A DNA stretch of 64,000 nucleotides from Clostridium pasteurianum (lineage in GTDB: Bacteria; Bacillota; Clostridia; Clostridiales; Clostridiaceae): contig NZ_MCGV01000001.1 of NCBI RefSeq assembly GCF_001705235.1, positions 2,294,001 to 2,358,000 of the forward strand. The letters run 5' to 3'. The stretch's first letter is position 1; each line of letters starts with the position of its first letter. The notes under the pieces are model-generated. The model had not been told where the DNA came from. It was given only the letters and a program-made list of their open reading frames with translations, and searched no databases. Shown here one piece after another: positions 18,368 through 60,449 of the stretch. Position numbers and translations under genes: made by a program.

Positions 18368-18845
18368 TTGAAATAACAGTGCTTTGAACATTAAAAAAAC
18401 CCTATAAATCTTATCATAATTGAGGTTTGGGTCAAGGACCCATTATCCTTCTTTATAAAATACAGGCGATCTTAATGTCTACGATTAACAACCATGATTT
18501 ATTAATTAAAAGATTTATATAAAACTTTTACAATGTAGAGATTGGCTGTTTGAAGTTAAGAAGGATAATGGGCTAAAGCCCAAGCCTCGTGTATGATAAA
18601 ATTGAAAACTCTAAGTATTTTACTATTTTTTCACCAAGATTTATTAGGATTTTTTAGGTATCTGATAGAAAATAATAAGTCCATGTTGTGAGATAATTTT
18701 GTGTAATACGAGGAAACTGGTTCCGATAATACTGGGAAGTCTTAACGGGTTCAGTTGATGAAATATTACGCAAAATTAGCCACTAGATAGACTTATTATT
18801 TTTTTGAAGATGCCTTTAATTGTTACTTCAGCACTGTTATTTCAA
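18368..18845. repeat. Nested palindromic element, copy 1 (composite)
   Basis: Outer arms TTGAAATAACAGTGCT (18368-18383) and its exact complement (18830-18845). Inside are a second arm pair (AAACCCTATAAATCTT with AAGATTTATTAGGATTT), a long palindrome module at 18411-18599 whose arms share GGGT...CCCATTATCCTTCTT and its complement, half of the conserved-loop hairpin (18602-18635), and a 138-bp nested module at 18668-18805. It starts seven bases after the kdpE stop. There is no open reading frame. It may also end the kdp transcript. Confidence 0.8.
18668..18805. repeat. Nested module M, copy 1
   Basis: About 138 bp, bounded by AAATAATAAGTC and GACTTATTATTT. An internal helix pairs TAATTTTGTGTAATA with TATTACGCAAAATTA, and an inner loop carries CGAGGAAACTGGTTCC. 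A second copy at 22126-22260 is highly similar, including the loops. It is inserted in the right arm of the surrounding palindrome. Confidence 0.7.
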
Positions 18846-18857
18846 TTTGAAAGTGGA

Positions 18858-18892
18858 GCAAGGAAAATATTCCTCTGTCCCTACGGAATATT
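18858..18892. repeat. Satellite hairpin module, copy 1
   Basis: GCAAGGAAAATATTCC followed by CTACGGAATATT; related copies lie at 23046, 44847, 54827 and 60225, each about 14 bp after a large palindrome. It is followed by TGCTGAC...GTCAGCA (18911-18936). The remaining sequence to 19100 holds no gene. Confidence 0.65.
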
Positions 18893-19108
18893 ATTATATA
18901 CGGGGGTTGAGTGCTGACATTGCTTTGCTCGTCAGCAGGTTATAGGCGTCAGTAATAAACTAATAACATTAAAAAATTTTGGGATAATAATTATAAATTA
19001 TTGGTGTAACAACATATTTTTTATAACTTACAAGTATAGAGTTTTTAACCTTTCATATACTATTTGTATTATATAGCATATAAAAGCTTAAATTTAAAAT
19101 AGGAAAAA

Positions 19109-19137
19109 TTGTAAATACGTATTTATTACTATATAAT
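19109..19137 (+). promoter_or_regulatory. Promoter of YpmS-like gene
   Basis: TTGTAA (19109-19114), a 17-bp spacer and TATAAT (19132-19137), 36 bp before the chosen start. Confidence 0.6.
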
Positions 19138-19172
19138 AGTTACTAAAATAAGGTTTAATGGAGGGCGTTAGT

Positions 19173-19757
19173 ATGGTGAAAAAGAAAATTGGATTTTTTG
19201 TCACGCTTTTAATAATTATTCTTATAATTTCAGGTATTATATTTTCTATAAGTCCTGTAAAAAATATATCTCTTCCAAAAAATAAAGGAACAGTTGATGG
19301 ACAAATTGCACAATTAGACAGTAAAGTGAATGTTAAAAGTGACAGAATTGAAGTAAGCTATTTTTTAACTGAAGATGATTTTAATAATATGCTATATAGA
19401 TATATCAAAAATGACGTAAATCTTAGTGGACTAAAAACAGAAGCTCGTAATAATCAAATAAAAGTTTATGCTAATACTAAAGTTTTAAGTATAATACCAA
19501 CTCAAGTTATAATTGATTTTGAACCTTATGTAAAAAATGATACAATTAATTTTACTCTTAAAAATGTTAGTGTCGGAAGAATTTCTGTGCCTAAAGCATA
19601 TTACAATAAAATTCTAAAGAAAATAAACTCTGCGTATGTATATGTACAGAATAACGATATTATTTTAAAGAAAAAATCTATAGAACCTTTTAAGGTGAAA
19701 AATTATAGTGTTAATAGTGGCAAGATAAGATTAGATTTATATTACTACACTAAATAG
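19173..19757 (+). CDS. YpmS-like DUF2140 membrane-anchored protein
   Basis: About 194 residues: one N-terminal membrane helix (about 4-26) and an outside domain. The segment FEPYVKNDTINFTLKNVSVGRI followed by a VPKAYYNKILKKI helix matches the YpmS/DUF2140 family of Firmicutes, whose function is unknown but is thought to act at the cell envelope. ATG at 19173 is chosen since the ATG at 19158 lies inside the GGAGGG ribosome site. The gene is followed 27 bp later by the PucR-type regulator. Confidence 0.7.
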   Translation: MVKKKIGFFVTLLIIILIISGIIFSISPVKNISLPKNKGTVDGQIAQLDSKVNVKSDRIEVSYFLTEDDFNNMLYRYIKNDVNLSGLKTEARNNQIKVYANTKVLSIIPTQVIIDFEPYVKNDTINFTLKNVSVGRISVPKAYYNKILKKINSAYVYVQNNDIILKKKSIEPFKVKNYSVNSGKIRLDLYYYTK

Positions 19758-19784
19758 TTATAGGATTTTGTGAGGTGAAAATAA

Positions 19785-20957
19785 TTGATTTCATGTAGGA
19801 ACATAGTAGAACTTCCTCAGTTAGAACAACTTAAATTAGTGGCTGGAGAGGGTGGACTTGATAGGATAATCCTGTGGGCACATGTGGCTGAATCACCGCA
19901 AGCTAGCAATTGGGTTACAAATGGAGCTTTAATGCTTACTACTGGAAATTCAATAAAAGAGGACAATTTATTGAATTTAGTGAGAAATATCAGCAGTAAA
20001 AATCTTTCTGGGCTTATTGTAAGTATAGGATCTTGTATAAAAAGAGTTCCGAAGGAGGTTAAGGACTATGCTAATAGTATAAACTTTCCCATCTTTGAGT
20101 TACCTTCTGAAGTAGATATTTCTAAAATCGTAGAAAGTATATGCAGGGCTACATTTGTAAGTGAAATAGAAGATAAAAATACGACTGAACCTATGGAAAA
20201 CTTAATACGTGGTAAAGTGGAATATAGCAATGAATTTTTAAAAAATGAGTTTCTGTATGGATATGATATAAACAGTAGTTATACAGTCATTGTAGTCAAT
20301 ATAGATAAGGATAAGTCTAATCAAAAATATGACACAAATAAAATTATGGAAAAAGGCGTAAATGAAGTTATGCATAAATTTAATAAAAAAATTTTGTGTA
20401 CATGCAAGGATGATTTATATATCATAATTATGACTATTTTAAGTAATATAAAAGAAGAGACTAACTTAGTGGTTCAGGAGTTAAAAAATTATATAAGTAG
20501 AAATATCCCAAGGGTTGATATTAAAATAGGATGTGGAAGAGAATGCTCTAAAAAAAGTGAAATATATAAAAGCTTTAATCAGGCAATTTTTGCATTGAAG
20601 TTTTTACAAATAAATAAAGAGCATGACTATATGTGCTTTTATGATAATCTCGGAGTGTATAGAATCTTTTATGAGGTTCAAGATAAGGGAGAATTAGAAG
20701 ATATATATAATGATATTTTAGGCAGATTAATTGATTATGATTTGAAAAAAAATAGTAATTTAGTTGAAACTTTAAAAGCGTATTTAGATGAAGATGGAAA
20801 TTTAAGCAAGGTATCTGATAAACTTTTTATTCATAGAAATACTTTAAAATATAGAATTCAAAAAATGCAGAATATAATGAATTGCAGTTTAAAGGATGCT
20901 AATGTAAGGTTTAATTTATTTTTAGCATTTAAGTTAAAGAAATTTATGAATCTTTAA
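19785..20957 (+). CDS. PucR-family transcriptional regulator
   Basis: 390 residues. The N-terminal PucR domain (about 5-125) has the pattern LVAGEGGLDRIILWAHVAESPQ; a degenerate GGDEF-like middle domain (about 165-290) follows, then a C-terminal helix-turn-helix of the HTH_30 type with LSKVSDKLFIHRNTLKYRIQKM. Members control purine, amino-acid or nucleotide-derived nitrogen use, but the target here is not evident because no catabolic gene is adjacent. TTG at 19785 follows GTGAGGTGAAAATAA. Confidence 0.85.
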   Translation: MISCRNIVELPQLEQLKLVAGEGGLDRIILWAHVAESPQASNWVTNGALMLTTGNSIKEDNLLNLVRNISSKNLSGLIVSIGSCIKRVPKEVKDYANSINFPIFELPSEVDISKIVESICRATFVSEIEDKNTTEPMENLIRGKVEYSNEFLKNEFLYGYDINSSYTVIVVNIDKDKSNQKYDTNKIMEKGVNEVMHKFNKKILCTCKDDLYIIIMTILSNIKEETNLVVQELKNYISRNIPRVDIKIGCGRECSKKSEIYKSFNQAIFALKFLQINKEHDYMCFYDNLGVYRIFYEVQDKGELEDIYNDILGRLIDYDLKKNSNLVETLKAYLDEDGNLSKVSDKLFIHRNTLKYRIQKMQNIMNCSLKDANVRFNLFLAFKLKKFMNL

Positions 20958-21530
20958 AGAAATTATTAGTAGAAAATTTAACTTAAAATAATATAAATAT
21001 GAAATTTGTCAAAAAACATATTGATTTTTGATATACATATATGATAAAATTAATAAAAATGATAATTTAATAAAAATACAATGTGTTCATTAATTAATTA
21101 CTAAAAATATCATTTTTTTAAAGCTTGAAATATCATTTTAATAAAAGCTTTAGTAGTAGGGCTATTCAAGTGTGAAAAACAATATGCTGAGTTTCATAAA
21201 TCTTACTTTGATTTTTATTTAAAATAGTTTAAACATGTTTCTTTAACTACCTAAACCCCTATATTGAATAGCCCGAAATTTTTATGATAAAATAACATAC
21301 ATAATTCATTATAAATCTGCTATTTTAATAGAAGTTTGATGATTAAGGCTTTTATTTAAAATAGCAGATTATTTTTGTTAAAATTAGACGATAGACTTTT
21401 TTGGTGCAAGTATGTTAACATGATGGTGAATTGATTGGAAATGTAAAATGTTTTTTTACTTAAAGTAATATAAAGCTTGAAAATACATGTTATATGATAG
21501 GGTAATTAAAAAGAAAAGAGGTTAAAGTCT
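20958..21530. other. 573-bp non-coding region with three hairpins
   Basis: No open reading frame is seen. Palindromes: AAAGCTT...AAGCTTT around 21120-21152; GGGCTATTCAA (21159-21169) with TTGAATAGCCC (21264-21274) enclosing 94 bp; and AATCTGCTATTTTAA (21314-21328) with TTAAAATAGCAGATT (21356-21370), followed by ATTTTTG and so terminator-like. It may hold an untranslated RNA gene or decayed repeat units. No clear promoter was identified. Confidence 0.5.
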
Positions 21531-21953
21531 ATGAATATAGCATTTTTTTTGACACCCAAGAATGAGGTTATATATGAAAAAATAACTTCTACTATGAGAC
21601 AAGCACTCGAGAGGATGGAATATCATAGATATACAGCTATTCCGATATTAGATGATAATGGGAGATATGTAGGAACATTAACAGAAGGGGATTTGCTCTG
21701 GAAGCTAAAGAATACGCCAGAACTTGATTTTCAAAATACCAATAAAATTTTAATTGAAAATATACCTAGGCACATGAATAATAAACCGGTACGTATAGAT
21801 TCAGATATAGAGGATCTTTTATCAAAATCAGTAAGTCAAAATTTTGTTCCAGTAGTTGATGATAATGAGGTTTTTATTGGTATGATTAAGAGAAGTGACA
21901 TTATGAATTATTGCTACTCTAAAATATTTAAAAAGAATGAAAAAGAAGCCTAA
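21531..21953 (+). CDS. Tandem CBS-domain protein
   Basis: 140 residues made of two CBS motifs, about 10-70 (RYTAIPILDDNGRYVGTLTEGDLL) and 78-135 (NFVPVVDDNEVFIGMIKRSDIM). Stand-alone CBS pairs bind adenine nucleotides and act as regulatory subunits; the partner is unknown. AAAAGAGG precedes the ATG. A composite palindrome begins at its stop codon. It is the only gene in a repeat-rich 4-kb stretch apart from the insertion sequence. Confidence 0.85.
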   Translation: MNIAFFLTPKNEVIYEKITSTMRQALERMEYHRYTAIPILDDNGRYVGTLTEGDLLWKLKNTPELDFQNTNKILIENIPRHMNNKPVRIDSDIEDLLSKSVSQNFVPVVDDNEVFIGMIKRSDIMNYCYSKIFKKNEKEA

Positions 21954-22305
21954 AGAGAGGGAACATTGCTTCGGAACATTAAAAAAATTCTATAAATCTA
22001 AGGTAAAAAAATAGTAAAATACTAAGGGTTTTCAATAACTCACTAACGTTCAGACAAATTGAAAACTCTAAGTATTTTACTATTTTTTTGCCAAGATTTA
22101 TTAGAATTTTTTAGGCATCTGAAATAAAATAACAAGTTCATGTTGTGAGATAATTTTGTGTAATACGAGGAAACTGGTTCCGCCAATACTAGGCAGTATT
22201 AGAGGGTTCAGTTGACGAAATATTACGCAAAATTAGCCACTAGATGGACTTATTATTTTTTTGAAGATGCCTTCAATCGTTCCTTCAGCAATGTTCCCTC
22301 TCTTT
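21952..22305. repeat. Nested palindromic element, copy 2
   Basis: Outer arms AAAGAGAGGGAACATTGCT (21952-21970) and its complement (22287-22305). Next come AAAAAAATTCTATAAATCT and AGATTTATTAGAATTTTTT, then a complete conserved-loop hairpin: AAATAGTAAAATACTAAGGG pairs with the segment ending ACTATTTTTTT, around the loop AACTCACTAACGTTCAGACAA. Module M (22126-22260) sits in the right arm. The left arm begins at the stop codon of the CBS gene. Confidence 0.8.
22126..22260. repeat. Nested module M, copy 2
   Basis: About 135 bp, the second copy of the module at 18668-18805. It shares TTTTGTGTAATACGAGG, AAACTGGTTCCG and TATTACGCAAAATTAGCC, and is flanked by AGGCATCT and AGATGCCT, which also pair. 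Confidence 0.7.
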
Positions 22306-22318
22306 TGGGGTAAAGCAA

Positions 22319-23048
22319 TCATAACCACCGGCTTAGCCGGTGGTTTGCTCAGCCCTGTAAGGGCATATTACTGGCTGGGCTAAAAGCCCTCTGAATGGTC
22401 TGCCACTCGCATGTTTTCCCATGCAGTCGCTAAAGCGACTTATTTTTTCTTCTTTACTGATTCACCGGTGAACGGATCAACAAGTTCTTTTATACTCATC
22501 TGTTCATATGCCAAATCCTCTTGCAATTGATTTTTTATATACTCCTGTATTTTCTTTTTGTTTTTCCCAACTGTATCAACATAGTATCCTCTACACCAAA
22601 ACTCCCTGTTTCCATATTTGTACTTCAAGTTTGCATGCTGATCAAATATCATTAAACTACTTTTACCTTTCAAATATCCCATGAAACTTGATACACTTAT
22701 TTTAGGTGGTATTTCTACTAGCATGTGTATATGATCTGGACAAGCTTCTGCTTCTATTATTTGCACGCCCTTCCATTCACATAACTTTCTTATTATTTTT
22801 CCTATATTGTTTTTTATTTTACCGTATATTATTTGTCTCCTATATTTAGGTGCAAACACTATGTGATACTTGCAATTCCATGTCGTATGAGATAAACTAT
22901 TTGTGTCTTTCATTAGACATCCTCCTATGCTTTTATATTTGCGGTTGGCTAGACCTGCATTTATTTTAACATAGGAGTTTTTTTCTACTCAACGGCATAA
23001 GCCTTTTTTCTTCCACTTGCTTAGCAAGTGGTTTCCTTTGTTACACAA
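22319..23048 (-). mobile_element. IS200/IS605-family element (tnpA only)
   Basis: About 730 bp carrying one HUH transposase gene and no tnpB. End hairpins AACCACCGG-CTTAG-CCGGTGGTT (22323-22345) and CCACTTGC-TTA-GCAAGTGG (23013-23031) are of the subterminal type recognised by these transposases. The element interrupts the satellite hairpin module: GCAA before the insertion and GGAAGAAAATTCC after it rejoin to the GCAAGGAAAAAATTCC seen intact at 54827 and 60225. The boundary is ambiguous by three bases (CAA). No target duplication is seen, as expected for this family. Confidence 0.8.
22440..22913 (-). CDS. tnpA: IS200-type transposase TnpA (Y1 HUH)
   Basis: 157 residues, full length. The HUH motif is H61-I-H63 in CPDHIHMLVE, and the catalytic Tyr is probably Y125 in YIKNQ near the C-terminal helix. 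It moves as single-stranded DNA by peel-and-paste. The frame is intact, so it may be active. The tail GESVKKKK is normal. It lies inside the element at 22319-23048. Confidence 0.92.
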   Translation of the reverse strand: MKDTNSLSHTTWNCKYHIVFAPKYRRQIIYGKIKNNIGKIIRKLCEWKGVQIIEAEACPDHIHMLVEIPPKISVSSFMGYLKGKSSLMIFDQHANLKYKYGNREFWCRGYYVDTVGKNKKKIQEYIKNQLQEDLAYEQMSIKELVDPFTGESVKKKK

Positions 23049-23080
23049 GGAAGAAAATTCCTCCGTGCCTACGGAATTTT
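23046..23080. repeat. Satellite hairpin module, right part split by IS200
   Basis: GGAAGAAAATTCCTCCGTGC then CTACGGAATTTT, followed by TGCTGAC...GTCAGCA (around 23113-23142), the same order as after copy 1 at 18858. The left GCAA of the module lies at 22315-22318, on the other side of the insertion. Confidence 0.65.
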
Positions 23081-23149
23081 AGGAGTGAATATTGTGTATT
23101 AGGCATTATTAGTGCTGACATCGCTTCTCCCGTCAGCAGGTGATGGGGG

Positions 23150-23714
23150 GAGCCAAAACCTCATATACGATAATTATCCTTCTTAATTTCTTTTCTGTTT
23201 TTGTACCCTGGGGGTTGTAATTATGAAAAATTCTATAGTTTAATGTAATTATTTAAGGTCATAAAAATTCATTATAACAATTGAATGTACATTATAATAA
23301 AAATAAAAAAAGACTAATAAGTTTTTACAAAAAAATCTTTATGACCATTAAAATAAATGCTATAATAAAAAACGTGTGGCAAAAAAGTGTCGTATTACCT
23401 AATTTTATAGTAAAATTATAAAAATTTAAAAGAATAAGTACTCAAGGAGTATTTTGTTTTTTTGAATGATTATTTTCAACATAATAATGTTGATGATGAA
23501 AATATAATACTCATATTACCACCTGTTGTATTAATTACTTTTGTGCAAGCGGCAAGCAAATTTCATCTATCAAAATTAAAAGATATGTGTAGTATTTAGG
23601 CTAATATTGAATTGTGGCGGAAAATATAAAAGCATATCGGCTAAAAAGATGGGAGCATCAAGGATTGTTGACTTTCACAAGCGACTAAAGATTAAGAAAA
23701 AAAGGGAGAAGAAA
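23150..23714. other. Non-coding stretch with repeat fragments
   Basis: AACCTCATATACGATA and TTATCCTTCTT (23158-23185) are pieces of the long palindrome module found at 18411 and 54533. GAGTATTTTG (23448-23457) pairs loosely with ATAATACTC (23503-23511). An open frame from 23607 to the lipoprotein start exists but has no ribosome site and I do not consider it coding. No promoter was assigned with confidence. Confidence 0.4.
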
Positions 23715-24922: not shown

Positions 24923-24943
24923 TTATTTATGGAAGGAGAATAT

Positions 24944-41856: not shown

Positions 41857-42114
41857 ATGGCTAAAAGAATATCAGTAGAAGGAATGAGCTGTGAACACTG
41901 TGCAGCTCATGTTAAAGAGGCACTAGAAGGGATTGGAGCTAACAATGTCAAGGTTAATTTAAAGAAAAAATCAGCATTAATAAGTAATGATGTGGAAGAT
42001 GAAAAAATAAAGGCAGCTATTGAGGATGCTGGTTATGAAGCTACTAAGATAGAAGAAGCTTCAGATGAAAGTACATCTAAACTAAAGGGATTTTTTAAGA
42101 AGGTTATGAAGTAA
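41857..42114 (+). CDS. copZ: CopZ-like copper chaperone
   Basis: 85 residues: an HMA fold with the GMSCEHCAAH copper motif (C12, C15) and an 18-residue charged C-terminal extension ending FFKKVMK that ordinary CopZ lacks. It would hand Cu(I) to CopA. Its last codon and stop (AAGTAA) form the first bases of a palindromic repeat, so the tail may have been altered when the repeat inserted. Confidence 0.88.
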   Translation: MAKRISVEGMSCEHCAAHVKEALEGIGANNVKVNLKKKSALISNDVEDEKIKAAIEDAGYEATKIEEASDESTSKLKGFFKKVMK

Positions 42115-42270
42115 CAGTATTTTATAATATTAAACAAAGCTCATAAGTTTTATCATATCTGGGGTTTGGATCAGAGATTCATTATAATTATTCAAGTTTT
42201 GTATATGTGGAAAGTGCTTATATAAAATAAAAAATTATAATGTTGCTTACCTAAACCTCATGTATGATAA
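42109..42270. repeat. Nested palindromic element, copy 3 (degenerate)
   Basis: It begins with AAGTAACAGT at 42109, overlapping the copZ stop. TTATCATATCTGGGGTTTGG (42150-42169) pairs with the segment 42251-42270 (CTAAACCTCATGTATGATAA), the same outer arms as the long palindrome module of copies 1 and 5. The right outer arm with ACTGTTACTT is lost, so this copy looks old or truncated. Confidence 0.6.
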
Positions 42271-42961: not shown

Positions 42962-44653
42962 ATGAGTGAAAGTTTAAAGCAAGAAAAGGATGTTAAAGTT
43001 TCAAAAATTTCAGAAGAGCAAAAAAAGTTAACTACTGCTGAATTAGTTGTAAAGTGCTTAGAAAATGAAAATGTAGAGTACATATTCGGTATACCCGGAG
43101 AGGAAAACTTAGCACTTATTAATGCTCTTAAGGAATCATCTATAAAATTTATAACTACACGTCATGAGCAAGGTGCTGCTTTTATGGCAGATGTATATGG
43201 ACGATTGACTGGTAAACCTGGTGTATGTCTTTCAACTTTAGGACCGGGAGCTACAAACCTTATGACAGGAGTTGCTGATGCAAATCTTGATGGGGCTCCT
43301 TTAGTAGCAATAACTGGACAAGTTGGAACAGATAGAATGCATATAGAATCACATCAACATCTCGATTTAGTTGCTATGTTTGCTCCTGTTACTAAGTGGA
43401 ACAAACAAATAGTAAGACCTGATACTGCACCTGAAATAGTTAGAAAAGCTTTTAAGACAGCAGTTGATGAAAAACCAGGCGCATGTCATATTGACCTTCC
43501 ACAAAATATTGCGGATATGCCTGTAGAAGGTAAACCGTTAAAACATACATTAGTTGATAAGAGTTTTGCATCATATAGCAGCATAGAAAAAGCAGCAATA
43601 GCAATATCTAGAGCTAAAAATCCACTTATACTTTCAGGAAACGGAGCAATACGTTCTAAAGCAAATAAAGCAGTTTTAAATATGGCTGAAAGATTAAATA
43701 TTCCAATTGCAAATACATTTATGGGTAAAGGAATAGTCTCTTTTAAGCATCCTCTTTCACTTTGGAGCATGGGACTAGCTCAAAAGGATTATGTTAACAG
43801 AATTTTTGAAAAGACAGATCTTGTTATTGCAATAGGTTATGATATAATAGAATATTCACCTAAAAAGTGGAACCCAAATGGAGATATTAATATAATCCAT
43901 ATAGGTGAAAATAGAGCTGAAGTAAATAAATGTTATCTTCCAGAAGTTGAAGTTATAGGTGATATATCAGATTCTATTTATGAAATAGTTAGGCGTTCAA
44001 ATAGAGTAAATGTACCGAAGCAAGTACTTAAGATAAGGGAAGATATGGAAAAAGATTATAAGGAATACAGTAACGATGATTGTTGTCCTATGAAACCTCA
44101 AAAAATATTGTATGATTTACGTAAGGTTATGGGTGAAGAGGATATAGTTATATCTGATGTTGGAGCTCATAAAATGTGGATAGCTAGAAATTATCATTGT
44201 TATAAGCCTAATACATGTATAATATCAAATGGTTTTGCATCGATGGGTATAGCAATTCCTGGAGCATTAGCAGCAAAACTTGTAAATCCAGATAAAAAGG
44301 TAGTTGCAGTTACAGGTGATGGTGGATTCATGATGAATTCTCAGGAACTTGAGACAGCTTTAAGAATTGGTACTCCTTTTGTAACTCTAATATTTAATGA
44401 TAGTAATTATGGACTTATAAAATGGAAGCAGGAAGAAAGATACGGAGAATCAGCATGTATACATTTTACGAATCCAGATTTTAAGATGTATGCTGAGAGC
44501 ATGGGACTTAAAGGATATAGGATTACAAAAGCTGAAGATCTTATTCCTACTCTTGAGGAAGCATTAGCGCAGGATGTACCAAGTGTAATTGATTGTCCTG
44601 TTGATTACAGCGAAAATCTTAAATTATCACATAAATTAGAGGAACTAAAGTAA
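42962..44653 (+). CDS. alsS: Catabolic acetolactate synthase
   Basis: 563 residues, a TPP-dependent enzyme. The catalytic Glu is in TRHEQGAA; the TPP-binding motif is GDGGFMMNSQELETALRIG with NDSNYGLIKW. The DLVIAIGYDIIEYSPKKWN segment matches AlsS-type rather than FAD-binding IlvB enzymes. It condenses two pyruvates to acetolactate for acetoin. No T-box or small subunit is attached, unlike the ilvB copy 6 kb away. ATG at 42962 has the better ribosome spacing. The final AAG-TAA overlaps a palindromic repeat. Confidence 0.9.
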   Translation: MSESLKQEKDVKVSKISEEQKKLTTAELVVKCLENENVEYIFGIPGEENLALINALKESSIKFITTRHEQGAAFMADVYGRLTGKPGVCLSTLGPGATNLMTGVADANLDGAPLVAITGQVGTDRMHIESHQHLDLVAMFAPVTKWNKQIVRPDTAPEIVRKAFKTAVDEKPGACHIDLPQNIADMPVEGKPLKHTLVDKSFASYSSIEKAAIAISRAKNPLILSGNGAIRSKANKAVLNMAERLNIPIANTFMGKGIVSFKHPLSLWSMGLAQKDYVNRIFEKTDLVIAIGYDIIEYSPKKWNPNGDINIIHIGENRAEVNKCYLPEVEVIGDISDSIYEIVRRSNRVNVPKQVLKIREDMEKDYKEYSNDDCCPMKPQKILYDLRKVMGEEDIVISDVGAHKMWIARNYHCYKPNTCIISNGFASMGIAIPGALAAKLVNPDKKVVAVTGDGGFMMNSQELETALRIGTPFVTLIFNDSNYGLIKWKQEERYGESACIHFTNPDFKMYAESMGLKGYRITKAEDLIPTLEEALAQDVPSVIDCPVDYSENLKLSHKLEELK

Positions 44654-44832
44654 CAGTATTGCTGGAACATTAAATAAAATTAATAAATCTAAGGGTGATA
44701 TTTTAAAAATCCTAAGAAATTTCAATAACTCACTAACGTTCAAACAGATTGAAATTTCTAAGTCTTTTCAAAATATCACCCTAAGATTTATACAATTTTA
44801 TTTAAATTGTTCCAGCAACACTGTTACTTTAG
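44647..44832. repeat. Nested palindromic element, copy 4 (complete simple form)
   Basis: 186 bp, almost fully self-complementary. Outer arms AAAGTAACAGTATTGCTGG and CCAGCAACACTGTTACTTT differ at one base. The middle arms contain ATTAATAAATCTAAGG and its near complement. The inner stem (GGTGATATTTT with AAAATATCACC) encloses the loop AACTCACTAACGTTCAAACA. It contains the alsS stop codon and probably also ends that transcript. Confidence 0.85.
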
Positions 44833-44846
44833 TCTGAGAGAAAGGC

Positions 44847-44881
44847 AAGGAAGAAATTCCTCCGTGCCTACGGAATTTTAT
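44847..44881. repeat. Satellite hairpin module, copy 3
   Basis: GCAAGGAAGAAATTCCTCCG then CTACGGAATTTT, 15 bp after palindrome copy 4. Confidence 0.65.
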
Positions 44882-48489: not shown

Positions 48490-48760
48490 GACAAAAGCTT
48501 TGAAGAGAAGGAGTATATATTTTTCTGAAATAAAGAGAGGAAATGATGGTGGAAAGTTTCCATGATGAAAATATAGAAGGTAGTCTCTGAGCAGTGAACT
48601 GAAAATTATTTTGATTAGTAGGTTTCAACGAAATTCCATCGTTAAAAGGAAAGTAGTATCGGCACTTGCCCGTACTATATATTGAGAGCGTATTCATACG
48701 AATATAGGTGGTACCGCGAAATTTAACCTTCGTCCTAAATAAATAGGACGGAGGTTTTTT
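48490..48760 (+). promoter_or_regulatory. T-box riboswitch of the ilvB operon
   Basis: The conserved T-box AGGTGGTACCGCG is at 48706-48718. The stem I region contains AGTA, AGAGAGGAAATGATGG and GGTGGAAAGTTTCC with pairing GGAAA/TTTCC. The terminator AACCTTCGTCCTA with TAGGACGGAGGTT and T run is at 48725-48760. Uncharged tRNA would favour the antiterminator. I cannot fix the specifier codon; the gene context implies a branched-chain amino acid. Confidence 0.93.
48725..48760 (+). terminator. Conditional terminator of the T-box
   Basis: A 13-bp stem with six-base loop and six T, directly following the T-box sequence; its 5' arm competes with antiterminator pairing. Confidence 0.9.
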
Positions 48761-53633: not shown

Positions 53634-54509
53634 ATGATAAAGCTAATTGTATCGGATATGGATGGGACTTTGATTGGAAGCAATAGAGATATATCAGAAG
53701 AAAATGTAAAAGCTATACATGAAGCACAGAGAAATGGTATTAAGTTTGCTATTGCAACAGGTAGAGCTTATGCAGATGTCAAGACTTTCTTGGATAAGTA
53801 CGGTATAGAGTGTGAGTGTGCTGTACTAAATGGCGGAGAGTATATGGATAAAGATGGTAAAACTATTGAGGGAATTTATATTAATAAAAAAAGAACAAAG
53901 GAAATTTTGAATACAATATCAAAATATGATTTGGCAGTTGAAATATATACAGATAATGGATATTATACTACAAACACAAAAGATGAAATCTTAAAAGAAC
54001 TTATGCAAAAAGGTAAAAGCTTACATCCCAATATAAAAACTGAAGAGGACGCTTATAATTATGCAATAACTCATCCACATTTTTGCAGTATGAATTATAT
54101 AAAAAACATAGATGATTTTATAGGCAGCAGTGTTAATGTTGGAAAATTTGTTTCGTTTGGAGATTCAATTGATAGCATAAATGAGCTTAAAAAGGAGCTT
54201 TGTAAGCTTCCTGGTTTAGCTATATCATCTAGCCTTTTAACTAATGTTGAAGTCAATGATATTAATGCAACTAAAGGAAAAATTTTAGTTAGAGCATCGG
54301 AAAAAATGGGGATTAAAAGAGATGAAGTTGCTATTTTAGGAGATGCATCGAATGACTATTCCATGTTTGAAGAATTTCCAATTTCATTTGCTATGGAAAA
54401 TGCTATACCGGAGATTAAGAAAGTTGCAAAATATATGACTGCAAGTAACATCGAAAACGGAGTTGCTAAGGCAATAACAGAAATACTGCGAAGTAACAGT
54501 GCTGAATGA
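53634..54509 (+). CDS. Cof-type HAD hydrolase
   Basis: 291 residues. HAD motif I D8-M-D10-GT, motif II ATGR, a C2B cap (about 80-190), motif III Lys near 215 and motif IV ILGDASNDYSMFEEF. These phosphatases act on sugar phosphates or flavin-type cofactors. The last residues (SNSAE) are encoded by the left arm of a palindromic repeat, so the natural C-terminus was probably altered by its insertion. Confidence 0.9.
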   Translation: MIKLIVSDMDGTLIGSNRDISEENVKAIHEAQRNGIKFAIATGRAYADVKTFLDKYGIECECAVLNGGEYMDKDGKTIEGIYINKKRTKEILNTISKYDLAVEIYTDNGYYTTNTKDEILKELMQKGKSLHPNIKTEEDAYNYAITHPHFCSMNYIKNIDDFIGSSVNVGKFVSFGDSIDSINELKKELCKLPGLAISSSLLTNVEVNDINATKGKILVRASEKMGIKRDEVAILGDASNDYSMFEEFPISFAMENAIPEIKKVAKYMTASNIENGVAKAITEILRSNSAE

Positions 54510-54811
54510 ACATTAAAAAAATTCTATAAATCTTATCATACGTGGGGTTTGGGTCAAGGACCCATTATCCTTCTTTATAAAATACAGACTATCTTAATGT
54601 TTACGGCTAATAACTTTGATTAATTCAAGAATCCATGTAAACCTTTTTACAATATAGAGATTGCCTGCTTGAAGTAAAGAAGGATAATGGGTTTCGCCCA
54701 AACCTCGTATATGATAATGTTCAAACAGATTCAAAACTCTAAGTATTTTATGATTTTTTTATCAGGATTTATTAGAATTTTTTTAAATCGTTCCTTCAGC
54801 ACTGTTACTTC
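54490..54811. repeat. Nested palindromic element, copy 5 (composite)
   Basis: Outer arms GAAGTAACAGTGCTGAA (54490-54506) and TTCAGCACTGTTACTTC (54795-54811). Then AAAAAAATTCTATAAATCT and its near complement. The long palindrome module (54533-54717) has arms with GGGTTTGGGTCAAGGACCCA and ATCCTTCTT, and complements ending CGTATATGATAA; its core is closely similar to copy 1. Only the right half of the conserved-loop hairpin remains, exactly as in copy 1. It overlaps the end of the HAD gene. Confidence 0.85.
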
Positions 54812-54826
54812 TCTTTTAGGGGTGAA

Positions 54827-54860
54827 GCAAGGAAAAAATTCCTCCGTGCCTACGGAATTT
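54827..54860. repeat. Satellite hairpin module, copy 4
   Basis: GCAAGGAAAAAATTCC followed by CTACGGAATTT; an intact form of the site occupied by IS200 at 22319. Confidence 0.65.
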
Positions 54861-54929: not shown

Positions 54930-55050
54930 TAAGGAAGGATAACGATCATATATGGAGTTTGGGTCATGGAGCCATTATCCTTCTTAATTATCAATAGGCA
55001 TTTTCTATATTAATACTTTCTAAATTGCCCGAGCCTCGTGTAAGATAAAT
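54930..55050. repeat. Truncated long palindrome module
   Basis: AAGGATAACGATCATATATG, GGGTCATGGAGCCATTATCC and CGAGCCTCGTGTAAGATA match the long module of copies 1 and 5, but the outer AAGTAACAGT arms are absent and the right arm is incomplete. No gene lies between 54510 and 55140. Confidence 0.55.
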
Positions 55051-55140: not shown

Positions 55141-55248
55141 ATGAATATGAAAAAATTTAGAGGAGTATCAGCAATCAATGCAGTTTTTGGCACATCTGAA
55201 TTGTTTCATAATTATATAAATACATACGACCTTAATGAGTTAATTTAA
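55141..55248 (+). CDS. 35-residue leader-like peptide
   Basis: A short frame starting ATGAATATG behind an excellent ribosome site (GAGGAGG at 55132-55138). The peptide begins MNMKKFRGVS and ends NTYDLNELI. No known family. It is followed 26 bp later by a strong terminator and then a heterodimeric ABC exporter. It may be a regulatory leader peptide or a small exported peptide. It is not a fragment of a longer frame. Confidence 0.55.
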   Translation: MNMKKFRGVSAINAVFGTSELFHNYINTYDLNELI

Positions 55249-55273
55249 ACAGTTATATTTTTACGTGAAATTT

Positions 55274-55304
55274 AAACCATAGGTTGTATGCCTATGGTTT
55301 TTTT
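55274..55304 (+). terminator. Terminator/attenuator 1 upstream of ABC genes
   Basis: AAACCATAGG (55274-55283) pairs with CCTATGGTTT (55291-55300), then T to 55304. Confidence 0.85.
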
Positions 55305-55353
55305 ATGCGTAATTTTTAAGGGATAGTTTTCCATATATGTATTATTATGTTTT

Positions 55354-55387
55354 AAAAGCCGTAGGATTTAAATTCTGCGGCTTTTTT
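55354..55387 (+). terminator. Terminator/attenuator 2 upstream of ABC genes
   Basis: AAAAGCCGTAG (55354-55364) pairs with CTGCGGCTTTT (55375-55385), then T. A second terminator only 50 bp after the first suggests conditional read-through into the exporter genes. Confidence 0.85.
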
Positions 55388-55419
55388 ATATATCTATCTA
55401 TAAAAAGGGAGTGTTTAAT

Positions 55420-55479
55420 ATGAGTAAAAAAGAAATTCTAAAAAAAGTAAAGGGCTGTGATTCTATATTTTATGCGTAA
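55420..55479 (+). CDS. 19-residue leader-like peptide
   Basis: ATG at 55420 behind AAAGGGAGTG. The peptide begins MSKKEILKKVKGCDS and ends IFYA. It contains a single Cys. It lies 33 bp before the ABC start with the exporter ribosome site in between. It could be a leader peptide or a very small secreted peptide; the frame may also be chance. Confidence 0.4.
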   Translation: MSKKEILKKVKGCDSIFYA

Positions 55480-55512
55480 CAAGGTTAAAGTTTGTTTTGG
55501 GGGGGATTCATA

Positions 55513-57306
55513 ATGAATGATATTTTTAAAATAACAAAGGGAAATAGAGCACGGTATACATTAGCTATATTATCTATAGGGGTGGCAACACTTATATCAA
55601 TGATTGAGCCTACAATAATTAAAATCACAATAGATTCAATTATAGGAAATAAAGAGTTATATGTACCTAAGATATTAAAAAACTTTATAGCACAAATTGG
55701 AGGAAGAAGTGTTTTAAGAGAAAATTTATGGATATGTGCTGGATGTATTGTTTTGCTAACAAGCATAAGAGGGATATTCTTGTATTTCAAAGGTAAATTT
55801 TCAGGAGAAGCTTCAGAAAATATGGCTAGAAATATGAGGATAAAACTGTATGATCATATTCAAAGATTGCCATATAAGTACCATGTAAGTGTGGAGTCTG
55901 GAGATTTAATTCAAAGATGCACTTCAGATGTTGAAACTGTTAGAAAGTTTTTTGCAGTGGAGCTAGTTGAAATAGGCAGAACATTTTTTATAGTACTTTT
56001 CTCAGCAATTATGATGCTGTCTTTAGATAAAAAGATGACTATCATATCTGTGATAACTATACCGGTGATATTTTTGGTATCGTTCATATTTTTCAATAAT
56101 ATAAGAAAACTCTTTGAAAAGTCAGATGAAGAAGAGGCTTCACTTACAGCAATGCTTGAGAGAAATATTGAAGGAGTAAGGGTAGTGAAGGCCTTTGGAA
56201 GAGAACAATTTGAGATAGAAAGATTCGATGAAAAAAATAAAAAATATAGAGATTTAAGCTTTGATTTGAATAAAAGTTTGTCAACGTATTGGGCAACATC
56301 TGATCTTATATGTACTATTCAAATAGGCATGGTTCTCATGTTTGGAATATATTTTGCTGTAAAAGGAGATATAAGCCTTGGAACAGCAGTAGCCTTTAAT
56401 ACTTATGAAAGTATGCTTTTATGGCCAATAAGGCAGCTTGGAAGGATTCTTTCGGATATGGGTAAGATGACAGTTTCTATTAAAAGAATAATGAATATTA
56501 TTAGCGAAGAAGAGGAAAAAGAAGAGGGTAAGGCACTAGAACCTGAATTAAAAGGAGAAATTACTTTTGAAAATGTTTGTTTTGAGTATGAAAAAGGCAA
56601 ACCAATAATTAATGATTTTAGTCTAAAGGTAAATAGAGGCGAAACTGTGGCTATTGTTGGGCCTACAGGAGCAGGAAAGTCATCACTTGTTCATCTTCTT
56701 TTAAGGCTTTATGACTATAAAAGTGGATCTATAAAAATTGATGGTGTGGAGCTTTCAGACATTTCAAGAAAGTGGATAAGAAAAAATATTGGGATTGTTC
56801 TTCAAGAGCCGTTTTTATACTCAAGGACGATAAAGGATAATATAAAAATGGCAAAGGGTGATGCTGATAAAAGCGAAATTATTAGTGCCGCATCCACTGC
56901 AGCAGTTCACAATGTCATAAAGTCATTTGAAAAAGGCTATGATACCATTGTTGGAGAAAAGGGAGTATCTTTATCCGGTGGCCAACGTCAGAGAGTAGCT
57001 ATTGCTAGAACTTTGCTAAATAAATTTCCAATACTTATTTTTGATGATTCGCTTAGTGCTGTAGATACAGAAACTGATAAAGTTATTAGGAACAAGCTTA
57101 AAAATAGGAATAAAGATGTAACGACCTTTATAATATCTCATAGAATTTCTACAGTTATGGATGCAGATAAAATTGTAGTATTGAAAGATGGAAAAATTGA
57201 GGCTATTGGAAAGCATGAAGAGCTTATAAAAGTTAAAGGAATGTACAAAACAATATGGGAAATACAAAATACATTAGTAGATGTAAAAGATAAGAAACTT
57301 GCATAA
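55513..57306 (+). CDS. ABC exporter half-transporter (heterodimer subunit 1)
   Basis: About 597 residues: six membrane helices (about 10-310), then a nucleotide-binding domain with Walker A GPTGAGKSS, signature LSGGQRQRVAIART, Walker B ILIFDDSLSAVD and H-loop ISHRIST. Walker B is followed by Asp (DDS) rather than the catalytic Glu, indicating the degenerate site of a heterodimer such as BmrC/BmrD or LmrC/D. ATG at 55513 follows GGGGGG. It is coupled to the second half-transporter 24 bp downstream. Confidence 0.93.
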   Translation: MNDIFKITKGNRARYTLAILSIGVATLISMIEPTIIKITIDSIIGNKELYVPKILKNFIAQIGGRSVLRENLWICAGCIVLLTSIRGIFLYFKGKFSGEASENMARNMRIKLYDHIQRLPYKYHVSVESGDLIQRCTSDVETVRKFFAVELVEIGRTFFIVLFSAIMMLSLDKKMTIISVITIPVIFLVSFIFFNNIRKLFEKSDEEEASLTAMLERNIEGVRVVKAFGREQFEIERFDEKNKKYRDLSFDLNKSLSTYWATSDLICTIQIGMVLMFGIYFAVKGDISLGTAVAFNTYESMLLWPIRQLGRILSDMGKMTVSIKRIMNIISEEEEKEEGKALEPELKGEITFENVCFEYEKGKPIINDFSLKVNRGETVAIVGPTGAGKSSLVHLLLRLYDYKSGSIKIDGVELSDISRKWIRKNIGIVLQEPFLYSRTIKDNIKMAKGDADKSEIISAASTAAVHNVIKSFEKGYDTIVGEKGVSLSGGQRQRVAIARTLLNKFPILIFDDSLSAVDTETDKVIRNKLKNRNKDVTTFIISHRISTVMDADKIVVLKDGKIEAIGKHEELIKVKGMYKTIWEIQNTLVDVKDKKLA

Positions 57307-57330
57307 TTTATTTGAAGGAGGTGACAGGTT

Positions 57331-59148
57331 TTGATAGCAAGACAAGAAGAAAAAGTTACTGAAAAAATTAATATGGGAATATGGAAAAAACTTTTTAAAT
57401 ATATTTCGGATTTTAAAAAGGGGATAATATTTCTTTTAATGCTCATGGCTGTAGTTGGTGGAATTGATTCTATAATGCCCCTTTTAACCAGTTATGCAAT
57501 AGATAATTTTATTGTAAAAAGAAGCATAAAGGGACTTAGCTATTTTGCAGGGATGTATTTTTTAATTATGGCATTTCAATCGTTAAATGTTAAGCTTTTT
57601 ATAAGGCAAGCGGGTAAAATTGAAACACATCTTGCCTATCATATACGTAAATTAGGTTTTAAAAGATTGCAGCAATTATCATTCTCATATTATGATAAAT
57701 CATCTACAGGGTGGCTTATGGCGAGAATGACATCGGATATTAATAGGCTTAGCGAAGTAATATCATGGGGGCTTATCGATGTGGTTTGGGCTGTTGTAAT
57801 GATGGGTGCATCAATTGTTGTAATGCTTCTAAGTAATGTTAAGCTTACAATTATAAGTATGAGTGTAATTCCACCACTATTTTTGATAGGAATGTTTTTT
57901 CAAAGGAGAATACTTAAAGCTTATAGGAATGTGAGAAAGTTAAATTCTCAAATTACATCTGATTTTAGTGAAGAGATAGCAGGAACTAAAACAACTAAAA
58001 CACTGGTTAGGGAAGATGAAAATTTATATGAATTTAAGTATGATGCAGATAATATGAGGTATTCATCTGTAAGAGCAGCTATATTTTCAGCTCTATTTCT
58101 TCCAATAGTAATAACTATGGGAAGTTTAGGTACAGGTTTTGTATTGTGGTTTGGTGGAAGCAAGGTGATTTTAGGAAGTCTGTCCTATGGTACTTTTGTT
58201 ATGTTTATAGCATATACAATACAGTTTTTTGATCCTGTAACGCAGCTTGCTGGTACAATAGCGGAAATCCAACAGGCTCAAGCATCTGCAGAGAGAATAA
58301 TATCGCTTGTAGAAACTGAACCAGATATATGGGATAGAGAAGATGTAATTAAAAAATATGGGGATTTATTTATTCCACATAAAGAAAATTGGGAAAAAAT
58401 TAATGGTGATATTGAGTTTAAAAATATATATTTTTCCTACAAAAATGGAGAAAAAGTATTTGATAACTTTAATTTAAAGGTTAATAAAGGAGAGACTATA
58501 GCTTTTGTAGGGGAGACGGGTTCGGGTAAAAGTACGATTGTAAATTTGCTGGGTAGATTTTATGAACCTGATAAGGGTGAGATATTAATTGATGGCGTAG
58601 ATTATAGAGATCGCTCTCTTTTATGGCTTCAATCTAATATTGGATACGTGCTTCAAAGTCCACAGCTTTTTGCAGGCACAATAAGAGAAAACATAAGATA
58701 TGGAAAACTTGATGCTACAGATAGTGAAATTGAAAAAGCTGCATGCCTTGCAGGAGTTAATGAGTTTATAGATAAAATGGAGAAAGGTTATGATACTGAT
58801 GTTGGTGAAAAGGGTGGAAATCTTTCAACAGGGCAAAAACAACTGATTTCATTTGCTAGGGCTATTGTTAGTAATCCGGCTATTCTCATTTTAGATGAGG
58901 CCACATCGTCAATTGATACTGAGACAGAAAGATTAATACAAAAGTCTATAGAAAATATTATTTCTAACAGAACAAGTTTTGTAGTTGCACATAGGCTTTC
59001 TACAATAGTTTCAGCAGATAAGATTATAGTTATGAAAAAGGGAAAGATTGTGGAGAGTGGAACTCATGATGAACTTTTAAGTAAAGGAGGATATTATTAC
59101 AAACTTTATTTAAATCAAGATTTAGAAGCAAAAGAAAAAGCTGTATAA
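57331..59148 (+). CDS. ABC exporter half-transporter (heterodimer subunit 2)
   Basis: 605 residues: membrane domain (about 25-320) and ATPase domain with Walker A GETGSGKST, Walker B LILDEATSSID with the catalytic Glu, and H-loop VAHRLST. The signature reads LSTGQKQLISFAR, where the usual LSGGQ is LSTGQ. One degenerate and one consensus site across the two subunits is the heterodimeric exporter pattern. TTG at 57331 follows GGAGGTGA. It probably exports drugs or peptides. Confidence 0.93.
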   Translation: MIARQEEKVTEKINMGIWKKLFKYISDFKKGIIFLLMLMAVVGGIDSIMPLLTSYAIDNFIVKRSIKGLSYFAGMYFLIMAFQSLNVKLFIRQAGKIETHLAYHIRKLGFKRLQQLSFSYYDKSSTGWLMARMTSDINRLSEVISWGLIDVVWAVVMMGASIVVMLLSNVKLTIISMSVIPPLFLIGMFFQRRILKAYRNVRKLNSQITSDFSEEIAGTKTTKTLVREDENLYEFKYDADNMRYSSVRAAIFSALFLPIVITMGSLGTGFVLWFGGSKVILGSLSYGTFVMFIAYTIQFFDPVTQLAGTIAEIQQAQASAERIISLVETEPDIWDREDVIKKYGDLFIPHKENWEKINGDIEFKNIYFSYKNGEKVFDNFNLKVNKGETIAFVGETGSGKSTIVNLLGRFYEPDKGEILIDGVDYRDRSLLWLQSNIGYVLQSPQLFAGTIRENIRYGKLDATDSEIEKAACLAGVNEFIDKMEKGYDTDVGEKGGNLSTGQKQLISFARAIVSNPAILILDEATSSIDTETERLIQKSIENIISNRTSFVVAHRLSTIVSADKIIVMKKGKIVESGTHDELLSKGGYYYKLYLNQDLEAKEKAV

Positions 59149-59170
59149 AAAAATAAGTGGAGGTAGCAAT

Positions 59171-60025
59171 TTGATAATTAAAGAATTAAAATATGTAGAT
59201 GAAAAATTAATAAAAGAAATCAAAGACTTAGTAGAGGTATGTAGGAAATTTGATGCATTGAAAGAAGAAATATATCTAAGTAACGAACTTAATTTTAATA
59301 AGGAAATAAAATATGTATTTGTTTTGTATGAAGATAATAAGTTAGTTAGCGTACTTTCCGTGTTTATACCAACAGAGATAGAAGGGGAGTTTTCTGCATA
59401 TACATTGCCGGAATATAGAAATAGGGGCTATTTTAAAGAACTTTTTAATAGAGCAAAAATGGAATTACAGAAATACAAAGTTTCTGATATATTACTTGTA
59501 TGTGAAGCTTCTTCTAAATCAGGCAAGGCAGTAGTTCAAAGGCTGGGTGCAAAATATGATTTTGCTGAATACAGTATGAAATATATTGGCAAAGATAAAA
59601 TTGATCTAAATAATTTTAAATCTCAATTATATACTGCAGATATGAAAGATATTGATGATTTGGCCAATATAAGTATGAATGGATTTAAATCAAACAGTTA
59701 TGAAGATTCAAAACAGTTTGTTAAGAGTATACTTGAATCTGAAGATAGAATTCAACTTTTAACCAAAGTAAATGATAAGTGCATAGGAATGGTATCTGTA
59801 GGAATTCATGAAGATAAATGTGGAATATTTGGAGTTGCCATTATGCCAGAGTATAGAGGAAATGGTTTTGGAAAAGAACTAGTTAAACTTGCTTTAAATT
59901 ATCTTATTAAAAGAAACTATGACAACATATGGCTTGATGTTGATAGCAAAAATGATATAGCTTTTAACTTATATAAAAGCATTGGTTTTGAGGTACAAAA
60001 TGCAGTTGAGTACTATAGACTTTAA
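59171..60025 (+). CDS. Double GNAT-type acetyltransferase
   Basis: 284 residues with two GNAT domains: the first about 10-130 (YTLPEYRNRGYFKELF) and the second about 145-284 (VAIMPEYRGNGFGKELVKLAL). The second has the full Q/RxxGxG/A acetyl-CoA loop. It follows the ABC genes by 22 bp and is probably in the same operon, which fits a resistance role, but the substrate is unknown. TTG start follows GGAGG. A palindromic repeat begins at its stop. Confidence 0.85.
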   Translation: MIIKELKYVDEKLIKEIKDLVEVCRKFDALKEEIYLSNELNFNKEIKYVFVLYEDNKLVSVLSVFIPTEIEGEFSAYTLPEYRNRGYFKELFNRAKMELQKYKVSDILLVCEASSKSGKAVVQRLGAKYDFAEYSMKYIGKDKIDLNNFKSQLYTADMKDIDDLANISMNGFKSNSYEDSKQFVKSILESEDRIQLLTKVNDKCIGMVSVGIHEDKCGIFGVAIMPEYRGNGFGKELVKLALNYLIKRNYDNIWLDVDSKNDIAFNLYKSIGFEVQNAVEYYRL

Positions 60026-60211
60026 GTAACAGTGCCTCAGAACGTTAAAAAAGCTCTATAAATCTAATGTATAAAAATCGTAAAATTACAAGATATTTCA
60101 ATAACTCGCTGAGAAAATGCTCAGACAAATTGAAATATCTAAAGATTTTACGATTTTTATACCAAGATTTATTAGAGTTTTTTTAAATCGTTCTGAAGCA
60201 CTGTTACTTAA
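60022..60211. repeat. Nested palindromic element, copy 6 (complete simple form)
   Basis: 190 bp. Outer arms TTAAGTAACAGTGC (60022-60035) and GCACTGTTACTTAA (60198-60211). Middle arms AAAAAAGCTCTATAAATCT and AGATTTATTAGAGTTTTTT show a compensated base change relative to copies 2 and 5. The inner stem TATAAAAATCGTAAAAT pairs with the segment ending CGATTTTTATA. The loop AACTCGCTGAGAAAATGCTC keeps the AATAACTC...CAGACAAATT frame of other copies. It contains the acetyltransferase stop codon. Confidence 0.85.
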
Positions 60212-60224
60212 ATTTAGAAGTAAA

Positions 60225-60258
60225 GCAAGGAAAAAATTCCTCCGTGCCTACGGAATTT
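60225..60258. repeat. Satellite hairpin module, copy 5
   Basis: GCAAGGAAAAAATTCC then CTACGGAATTTT, 14 bp after palindrome copy 6. The sequence from 60259 to 60333 holds no gene. Confidence 0.65.
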
Positions 60259-60333
60259 TGGGTACGAACTGTATGGATTTATTTTGTTATTTTCCGTAGT
60301 GGAATAGAGAAAAATTTAGCTTGCTTTTAATTT

Positions 60334-60449
60334 AAGAAAAGTAACAGTATTTTGGAAACTGTTTAAATAAAATTCAATAAGTCTTGCTTCAAATTATAAA
60401 AAGACTTATTGAATTTTATTTAATGTTCCAAAAGACTGTTACTTTTCTT
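60334..60449. repeat. Nested palindromic element, copy 7 (minimal form)
   Basis: 116 bp. Outer arms AAGAAAAGTAACAGT and ACTGTTACTTTTCTT; inner arms AAATAAAATTCAATAAGTCT and AGACTTATTGAATTTTATTT. The conserved AACTC loop is missing. It lies between convergent genes, 30 bp from the end of the rubrerythrin gene, and could act as a terminator for it. Confidence 0.8.

Follow-up and report, generated by a model that had tools for sequence, protein, structure and literature searches.

The window analysed here is a stretch of 64,000 nucleotides from the genome of Clostridium pasteurianum, and it carries a family of long, nested palindromic elements with a constant loop. A sequence-only reading of this DNA had described seven related palindromes, and these are indeed present at all seven places (7/7). 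What had gone unremarked is their setting: in six of the seven copies, the stop codon of an upstream plus-strand gene forms the start of the element or lies no more than about 6 nt away from it.

Copies 4 and 6 are full elements on the plus strand. In copy 4 (44644–44878; arms ACTAAAGTAACAGT.. / ..ACTGTTACTTTAGT, loop 44723–44750, and tail 44833–44878), the left arm contains the stop codon (44651–44653) of an acetolactate-synthase-like gene, and in copy 6 (60021–60258; arms TTTAAGTAACAGTGC / GCACTGTTACTTAAA, loop 60099–60131, and tail 60213–60258), it contains that of a GNAT acetyltransferase gene (60023–60025). Copy 2 (21952–22318, plus strand; arms AAAGAGAGGGAACATTGC / GCAATGTTCCCTCTCTTT, loop 22033–22060) follows a CBS-domain gene with its stop at 21951–21953. 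It houses a further palindromic sequence, module B, within its right arm (22112–22275), and its tail is split by an IS200-type insertion (~22318–23045), resuming at ~23045–23079. Copy 1 (18366–18892, plus strand) is a composite with outer arms AAATTGAAATAACAGTGCT / AGCACTGTTATTTCAATTT (18366–18384 with 18826–18844), in which module M2 (~18412–18600) replaces the inner left stem and module B (18656–18815) interrupts the right arm; its tail hairpin lies at ~18858–18892, and the upstream kdpE-like gene stops at 18359–18361. Copy 5 (54490–54860, plus strand) is composite in the same way (module M2 ~54535–54722, tail 54815–54860), and here a HAD-hydrolase gene runs into the left arm, stopping at 54507–54509. 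Copy 3 (42109–42270, plus strand) is partial, with left arm AAGTAACAGTA and module M2 inside, and a copZ-like gene has its stop codon in the TAA of that arm (42112–42114). Finally, copy 7 (60334–60449), to which no strand is assigned, is a short palindrome with the same outer arms but without the constant loop, and it lies between two convergent reading frames.

A typical copy starts with a AAGTAACAGTGCT-like left arm, followed by GGAACATTAAA, an AT-rich stem, and the constant loop, which consists of CAATAACTC, a small variable hairpin, and TCAGACAAATTG. The right half is made up of the returning stem, GTTCC, the right arm, and about 18 constant bases, and in most copies of this genome a tail hairpin (AAAATTCC..GGAATTTT) is present; a T-run follows the inner hairpin. 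The whole measures roughly 200–240 bp, and no gene of its own was seen. The arm scheme proposed earlier (outer and second arms, differing inner stems, and a constant loop) fits copies 2, 4, and 6, with outer arms AAGTAACAGTGCT / AGCACTGTTACTT and second arm TTCTATAAATCT / AGATTTATTAGAA, whereas copies 3 and 7 are partial. The rearranged inside said to be common to copies 1 and 5 is real as well, and it consists of a separate palindromic module (TATCATA..GAGGTTTGGG..) in place of the inner left stem. The loop, earlier described as constant, is nearly fixed, and this extends across genera. Folding also bears out the palindromes: the RNA fold of copy 6 has −101.5 kcal/mol, whereas shuffled sequences average −37.0 (z −15.6), and the DNA fold of copy 4 gives a z of −16.2.

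The outer arms carry the strong consensus AA-TAA-A-T, and the A.A mismatches inside the CTAAG:CTAAG stem are fixed (67/68 copies in the own genome and 49/50 in relatives). A conserved tail (..AAGCAAGGAAAAAATTCCTCCGTGCCTACGGAATTTT) lies 3' of the right arm in most copies. Among the 77 tail matches in the stretches fetched from the own genome, 71 follow a right arm by a script rule and four more follow a divergent right arm on manual reading; of the remaining two, one is the split tail of copy 2 and one is unexplained. With its short length, lack of coding sequence, many copies, and terminal inverted repeats, the element has the traits of a miniature inverted-repeat transposable element, yet its tail extends beyond the right arm.

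Both modules occur more widely. Module B is a separate 164-bp palindromic sequence (AGGCATCT..AGATGCCT) that sits in the right-arm T-run; the own genome has four full-length copies of it, and additional ones occur in C. guangxiense and C. hydrogenum. Module M2 (TATCATA..GAGGTTTGGG..CCTCGTGTATGATA) is a palindromic repeat found both inside the element and alone, and besides its places in copies 1 and 5 the window holds it at 42150–42265 and 54945–55050. At two further loci, L007 (1.5–2.1 kb) and L058 (1.2–1.9 kb), parts of the element form head-to-tail arrays with a spacing of about 195–225 bp.

Seven copies was a severe undercount, and the lack of further copies genome-wide that had been named as speaking against a family is not what was found: at least 108 distinct places were counted in the genome, namely 72 elements with both flanking anchors and 36 further listed places. 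In this genome (4.68 Mb, two contigs), copy 5 gave 160 BLAST matches, fragments included, and copy 6 gave 344 candidates at first look (40 scored). Our sample of it comprises 66 stretches around matches plus the window, thus 67 stretches and 287 kb (~6% of the genome), and contains 96 loop-like cores, some of which are chance matches. In all sequences gathered, from relatives as well, the script recognised 132 elements with both anchors, the 72 of the own genome among them. A covariance model of the core hairpin found at least 67 matches each in the own genome, C. hydrogenum CUEA01 (G001), and C. guangxiense WZ_1 (G002), so the true numbers are higher.

The full element is limited to a clade. 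The exact loop pattern was met in 78 stretches among ~85,000 species genomes, a survey that may leave out the own genome, and 76 of these belong to C. hydrogenum and C. guangxiense. A C. acetobutylicum-like sister (G003) has no covariance-model match and, among the matches listed, no BLAST match to element parts; virus contigs with the own-type loop were not found either. The core, on the other hand, reaches much further, and the search of related clostridia suggested by the sequence-only reading proved rewarding: of 58 genomes scanned with model R1, 15 have matches (E ≤ 0.001). On rescanning seven of these, 44 matches were obtained in G007, 80 in G011, 45 in G023, 20 in G025, 16 in G037, four in G029, and one in G013. 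The sequences of these relatives share A[A/T]AACTCG(C/G)..TCA[A/G]ACA, and many also have the CTAAG stems (both inner-stem motifs in 11 of 24 loci of other genera), but their outer arms are quite different; the palindromes measure 171–389 nt, with G013 (63 nt) as the exception. Model R2, whose alignment had misaligned stems and kept only 2 base pairs, was not used. Model R3, run against 216 genomes of the class with 18 candidates scored per genome, matched at 1e-6 in seven, and the loop was confirmed in families f1 and f16; weak R3 matches in f31 (L225, L226, and L231) are without the loop and were not counted. Together with f2 and f3, this brings the loop-bearing families to four. Loop and inner stem are thus found again, combined with other arms, in further genera and in three additional families.

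The position of the elements is strongly polar. With a same-strand open frame of at least 80 codons whose stop lies within −40 to +5 nt of the left anchor as the test, a sense-strand stop is found at 57/68 elements of the own genome and at 40/51 in two relatives. The antisense test, mirrored to the right side, gives 1/68 and 2/49, and random positions in the same sequences give 56/1360 (~4%) and 39/1040, respectively. As the stretches were picked for their element content and not for genes, this polarity is no selection effect. When the stop window is widened, such a frame accompanies 62 of 72 own elements; for 31 of the 62, its stop is placed at −16 or beyond and thus inside the element (24 at −15/−16, one at −4, and six at +4). 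In other genera, a sense frame of at least 80 codons stops no more than 25 nt from the palindrome start in 13 of 25 loci, against one of 25 for the antisense. At six loci (L004, L019, L023, L030, L034, and L061), an arm of the element even codes the C-terminal residues of the protein (NNALEH, SNNASEH, SSIDLEH, and similar).

Orthologous sites, which the sequence-only reading had proposed to compare among strains, were compared between species. Copies 1–4, set against three relatives, give 12 comparisons, and in 11 of them the ~190 nt shown past the stop are without an element, the only filled site being that of copy 1 in C. hydrogenum. At 25 further sites in G003, chosen as counterparts of 17 elements with the stop in the arm, five with a frame running into the element, and three with the stop upstream, the element is absent from all 25 in the 72 nt shown; two loop-like matches in these stretches lack a hairpin and are attributed to chance. 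Related plasmids, tried as near-strain empty sites, gave no match. Of these 25 empty sites, 14 have a terminator-like hairpin with a T-rich end after the stop, where 4.6 are expected on shuffling. Locus L015 may be mentioned in passing, as two convergent genes have one common terminator there in G003 and one element each in the own genome. The exact native protein length is kept in seven of 19 genes with the stop in the arm (the 17 above plus copies 3 and 4), namely those at L007, L010, L015 (plus strand), L027, L037 (minus strand), and copies 3 and 4, with the remaining proteins differing from it by a few codons in either direction. Where the frame reads through, the element codes the end of the protein (..NNALEH, ..SNNASEH, and ..SSIDLEH). 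The empty-site comparisons and the protein ends together point to insertion close to the native stop, with replacement of the downstream sequence.

The arms also carry a record of the host gene. Twenty-four own copies have the stop at −15/−16, and in these the seven bases that precede the stop in the gene were set against the right arm: 156 of 168 positions are paired (split as 72/72 and 84/96), where 86 are expected with right arms shuffled between copies, and none of 5000 shuffles reaches either part. Beyond column 22, the pairing drops to background (28/96 vs 29), which marks a sharp edge. At L027, for example, the last 10 bases of the gene end AAATAATTAA are identical in the G003 orthologue, and an inverted copy of them stands in the right arm, whose sequence is GTTAATTATTT instead of GTTACTTCNC, the form met most often. 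The host gene is matched by the right arm in L011 and copy 4 as well, with AAATTA and ACTAAA. Right arms are therefore matched to the particular gene at which they stand. This match may originate from fold-back synthesis at insertion, from later arm copying, or from retained target stems (as reported for the EFAR elements discussed below).

We now turn to the paired changes, which exceed chance by a wide margin. Arm matches arm within each copy: outer-arm columns 6–21 are paired in 85–97% within copies, against 25–93% by column when arms are exchanged. In column 20, the figures are 93% and 25%, and one outer pair occurs as all four Watson–Crick types (91% paired vs 26% expected with arms exchanged). 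When 68 own copies are aligned with gaps, at least two Watson–Crick types are seen at 38 of 80 stem pairs, and at 42 of 80 in relatives. Among close copies, the outer arms vary faster than the inner stem, with 61 both-sided changes in 17 pairs compared to 42 in 40 pairs.

From the paired changes and the fixed loop, the sequence-only reading had deduced that a hairpin is under selection, as RNA or as single-stranded DNA; for RNA, this conclusion is not supported. Selection on the sense RNA should favour G–U among the mismatches. At pairs that are at least 75% paired, the own genome has 56 G–U, 66 A–C, and 78 other mismatches (4297 cells), and the relatives have 48, 77, and 39 (3299 cells). In other genera, G–U and A–C number 60 and 76 (25 loci) and 29 and 31 (eight palindromes, seven loci), so that a sense-strand excess of G–U over A–C was found in none of the four data sets. 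A route through G–U would also make both-sided changes mostly transitions, and they are not enriched: 30 close own pairs show 126 both-sided changes (61% transitions) and 203 one-sided ones (60%), and 19 pairs of relatives show 37 (57%) and 101 (67%). A transversion excess in an ungapped count of the outer arms (84 vs 54) was set aside as probably in part a matter of mis-register, since the gapped alignment gives 27 vs 34. Given the missing G–U excess, the equal transition shares in the own genome, and the match of the outer arms to host coding sequence, the paired changes are no proof of RNA-hairpin selection here. If one arm serves as the DNA template for the other, a process described for hairpins (PMC8794818), the covariation could be explained without it, although G–U and A–C may also be equalised if selection acts on DNA single strands or, as in a two-way terminator, on the RNAs of both strands.

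Our preferred reading, which we hold with slightly more belief than doubt, is that of a nonautonomous family of mobile hairpins that lands at gene ends in one direction, supplies a new stop and a probable terminator, and is kept palindromic by copying at the DNA level. Gene 3' ends would be the insertion sites of its members, with a single orientation, and the native end (in many cases a terminator, at times also a few codons) would be lost. The element would then furnish the new gene end with its stop codon, its long hairpin and T-run, and its tail hairpin, which would probably act as a transcription terminator. Speaking for this reading are the copy number, the clade-limited presence, the empty sites, the polarity and stop-codon overlap, the match of arm to arm and of arm to host flank, the missing wobble excess, and the loop and inner stem common to other genera. 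Movement would depend on an enzyme acting in trans that recognises the constant loop and the mismatches of the CTAAG:CTAAG stem. The complementarity of the arms would come from DNA copying, either at insertion or later through template switching, instead of selection on RNA pairing. We regard as improbable, but put forward, a more far-reaching version, in which a class of mobile hairpins extends across several clostridial families, recognisable by the loop A[A/T]AACTCGCT..GCTCA[A/G]ACA and mismatch-bearing CTAAG stems. Such elements would seek out gene ends in a single orientation, and fold-back synthesis on insertion would write the last host bases, inverted, into the far arm, each copy being born as a perfect palindrome that is fitted to its gene and takes over the stop and terminator of that gene.

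Critically speaking, several observations sit uneasily with the mobile-hairpin reading. By our simple rule, 11 of the 25 empty G003 sites have no terminator-like structure, which means that the element replaces a terminator at part of the sites only. That just seven of 19 proteins keep their native length implies that in most of them the last codons may come from the element rather than from the host. Block copying would predict clustered double changes, but these are not clustered (14 vs 9.8 expected, 194/2000 permutations, and 3 vs 1.4, 285/2000), and tract-like double changes as a footprint of template switching were accordingly rejected as not significant. The A.A mismatches stay fixed, though blind copying of an arm would erase them. 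Where outer pairs are mismatched, right-only and left-only changes are about equal (9 vs 6 in the own genome and 8 vs 5 in relatives), so no intermediate with a host left arm and an uncorrected donor right arm is visible. No target-site duplication was seen by eye, in comparisons that involved only distant species and no systematic search. Lastly, no transposase is linked to the elements in a search that covered Y1 genes alone and no other transposase families.

The Y1 genes deserve a closer look. The insertion at 22318–23045 of the window is of the IS200/IS605 type, and its minus-strand frame (22440–22913) scores 160.9 bits to the IS200 model; against the REP-tyrosine-transposase model, the same protein reaches 32.8 bits, below the cut-off of 80. 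In the own genome, only two intact genes of this IS200 type and one fragment were found, and the window gene merely lies inside the tail of copy 2, on which grounds we rejected this transposase as the mover.

Among the alternatives, the one that survives best, although we think it unlikely, takes EFAR of Enterococcus faecalis as its model. These are reportedly palindromic, modular miniature insertion sequences of ~170 bp with two stem-loops, whose stem-loop targets are said to be mostly lost, with parts of the stems kept at the element ends, and which are said to vary between strains. Applied here, the outer arms would be leftover stems of the native terminator hairpin that the element entered, different from site to site, paired from birth, and in no need of arm copying. 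The surplus of terminator-like hairpins at the empty G003 sites agrees with this, as does the faster change of the outer arms relative to the inner stem. However, unrelated terminators would hardly share the common consensus AA-TAA-A-T; at L027, L011, and copy 4, the native hairpin of the empty site, where one is seen, contains neither the stop codon nor the host bases of the arms (with the outgroup being distant); and 75 of 77 matches to the conserved tail lie outside the right arm.

More doubtful is a vertically inherited two-way terminator under selection on both RNA strands, in which neither mismatch would be favoured because G–U on one strand is A–C on the opposite one. The similar counts of the two are what it predicts, and the gene-end location (convergent pairs included), the T-run past the inner hairpin, and the tail hairpin all suit a terminator. 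A two-way device should nevertheless not be oriented in one way so strongly (57 vs 1 of 68), nor do the empty orthologous sites (11/12) and the patchy presence (15/58 genomes) look like vertical inheritance, and the one-sided changes look neutral (60% transitions, with G–U close to A–C).

Less probable again is the suggestion of the earlier reading itself, a structured regulatory RNA of mRNA 3' ends that is selected on the sense strand. It would account for the sense orientation at stop codons, the apical loop that is constant across genera, and the A.A mismatches, and covariation at the structure level is indeed high (0.704 vs 0.180 shuffled, in an alignment fitted to the structure). The absent G–U excess in all four data sets and the both-sided changes without transition enrichment speak against it, and no Rfam 15 family matches the element at gathering score; sub-threshold matches to microRNA hairpins were taken as chance. 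That unrelated inverted duplications resemble each other by chance or composition can practically be dismissed, since, AT-rich and full of palindromes as this genome is, loop and inner stem align over their full length in three species and further genera, and the shuffled controls already contradict it.

Which known systems come closest to the mobile-hairpin family? EFAR, going by its reported features, is likewise a palindromic mobile repeat at stem-loops. Unlike EFAR, the present elements often contain the stop codon, are strongly oriented in one way, match their flank including host coding sequence, and have a constant apical loop common to several clostridial families. BOX elements of Streptococcus pneumoniae are also modular palindromic repeats of high copy number and resemble ours in that respect, but we know of no stop-codon targeting or inverted host match in them. 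The YPAL (RU-2) repeats of Yersinia, of ~168 bp, are described as inserting at targets that span or adjoin dyad symmetry, as being co-expressed with upstream genes, and as having filled and empty sites, with target-site duplications of 3–26 bp (PMC2229807). They differ from our elements in their host and, as far as our comparison by eye goes, in these duplications. In the way they work, the clostridial elements would most resemble EFAR and YPAL, as palindromic repeats that move and are drawn to the stem-loops at gene ends. We do not file them as a member of either group, as EFAR was compared by description only and no target-site duplication was seen, none having been systematically sought.

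REP repeats are dispersed extragenic palindromes thought to be linked to IS200/IS605-type (RAYT) transposases (PMC3733652, PMC2817692). With 20–40 bp and a RAYT, as described there, they contrast with elements of ~200 bp in a genome where only IS200-type Y1 genes were found. Template-switch mutations in hairpins are a DNA-level process that keeps stems paired without a G–U step (Monttinen and Loytynoja 2022, PMC8794818). As presented there, this is a mutation process and not an element family, and the double changes seen here are unclustered. Literature searches with the loop sequence strings and by topic gave no description of the element in these clostridia, with subscription papers mostly outside their coverage. 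What is new here is the position and polarity at stop codons, together with real covariation that lacks a wobble excess and has its right arm matching host coding sequence.

Among sequence evidence for a functional RNA, covarying stems are usually held to be the best, whereas this strongly covarying family fails the wobble test and matches host coding sequence, making it a natural warning case as well as a natural laboratory for the copying of DNA arms. If it is true that the elements replaced the ends of at least about 100 genes, transcript ends have been changed in several clostridia, and the common loop makes the moving enzyme a tractable target.

Two structured RNAs outside the elements were encountered along the way, and they are the sole Rfam matches that exceed a gathering score. 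A T-box leader is present in the window at 48491–48740 (Rfam RF00230, 121 bits), and another clostridial genome contains a SECIS_4 selenocysteine insertion sequence above the gathering score (L191:777-814).

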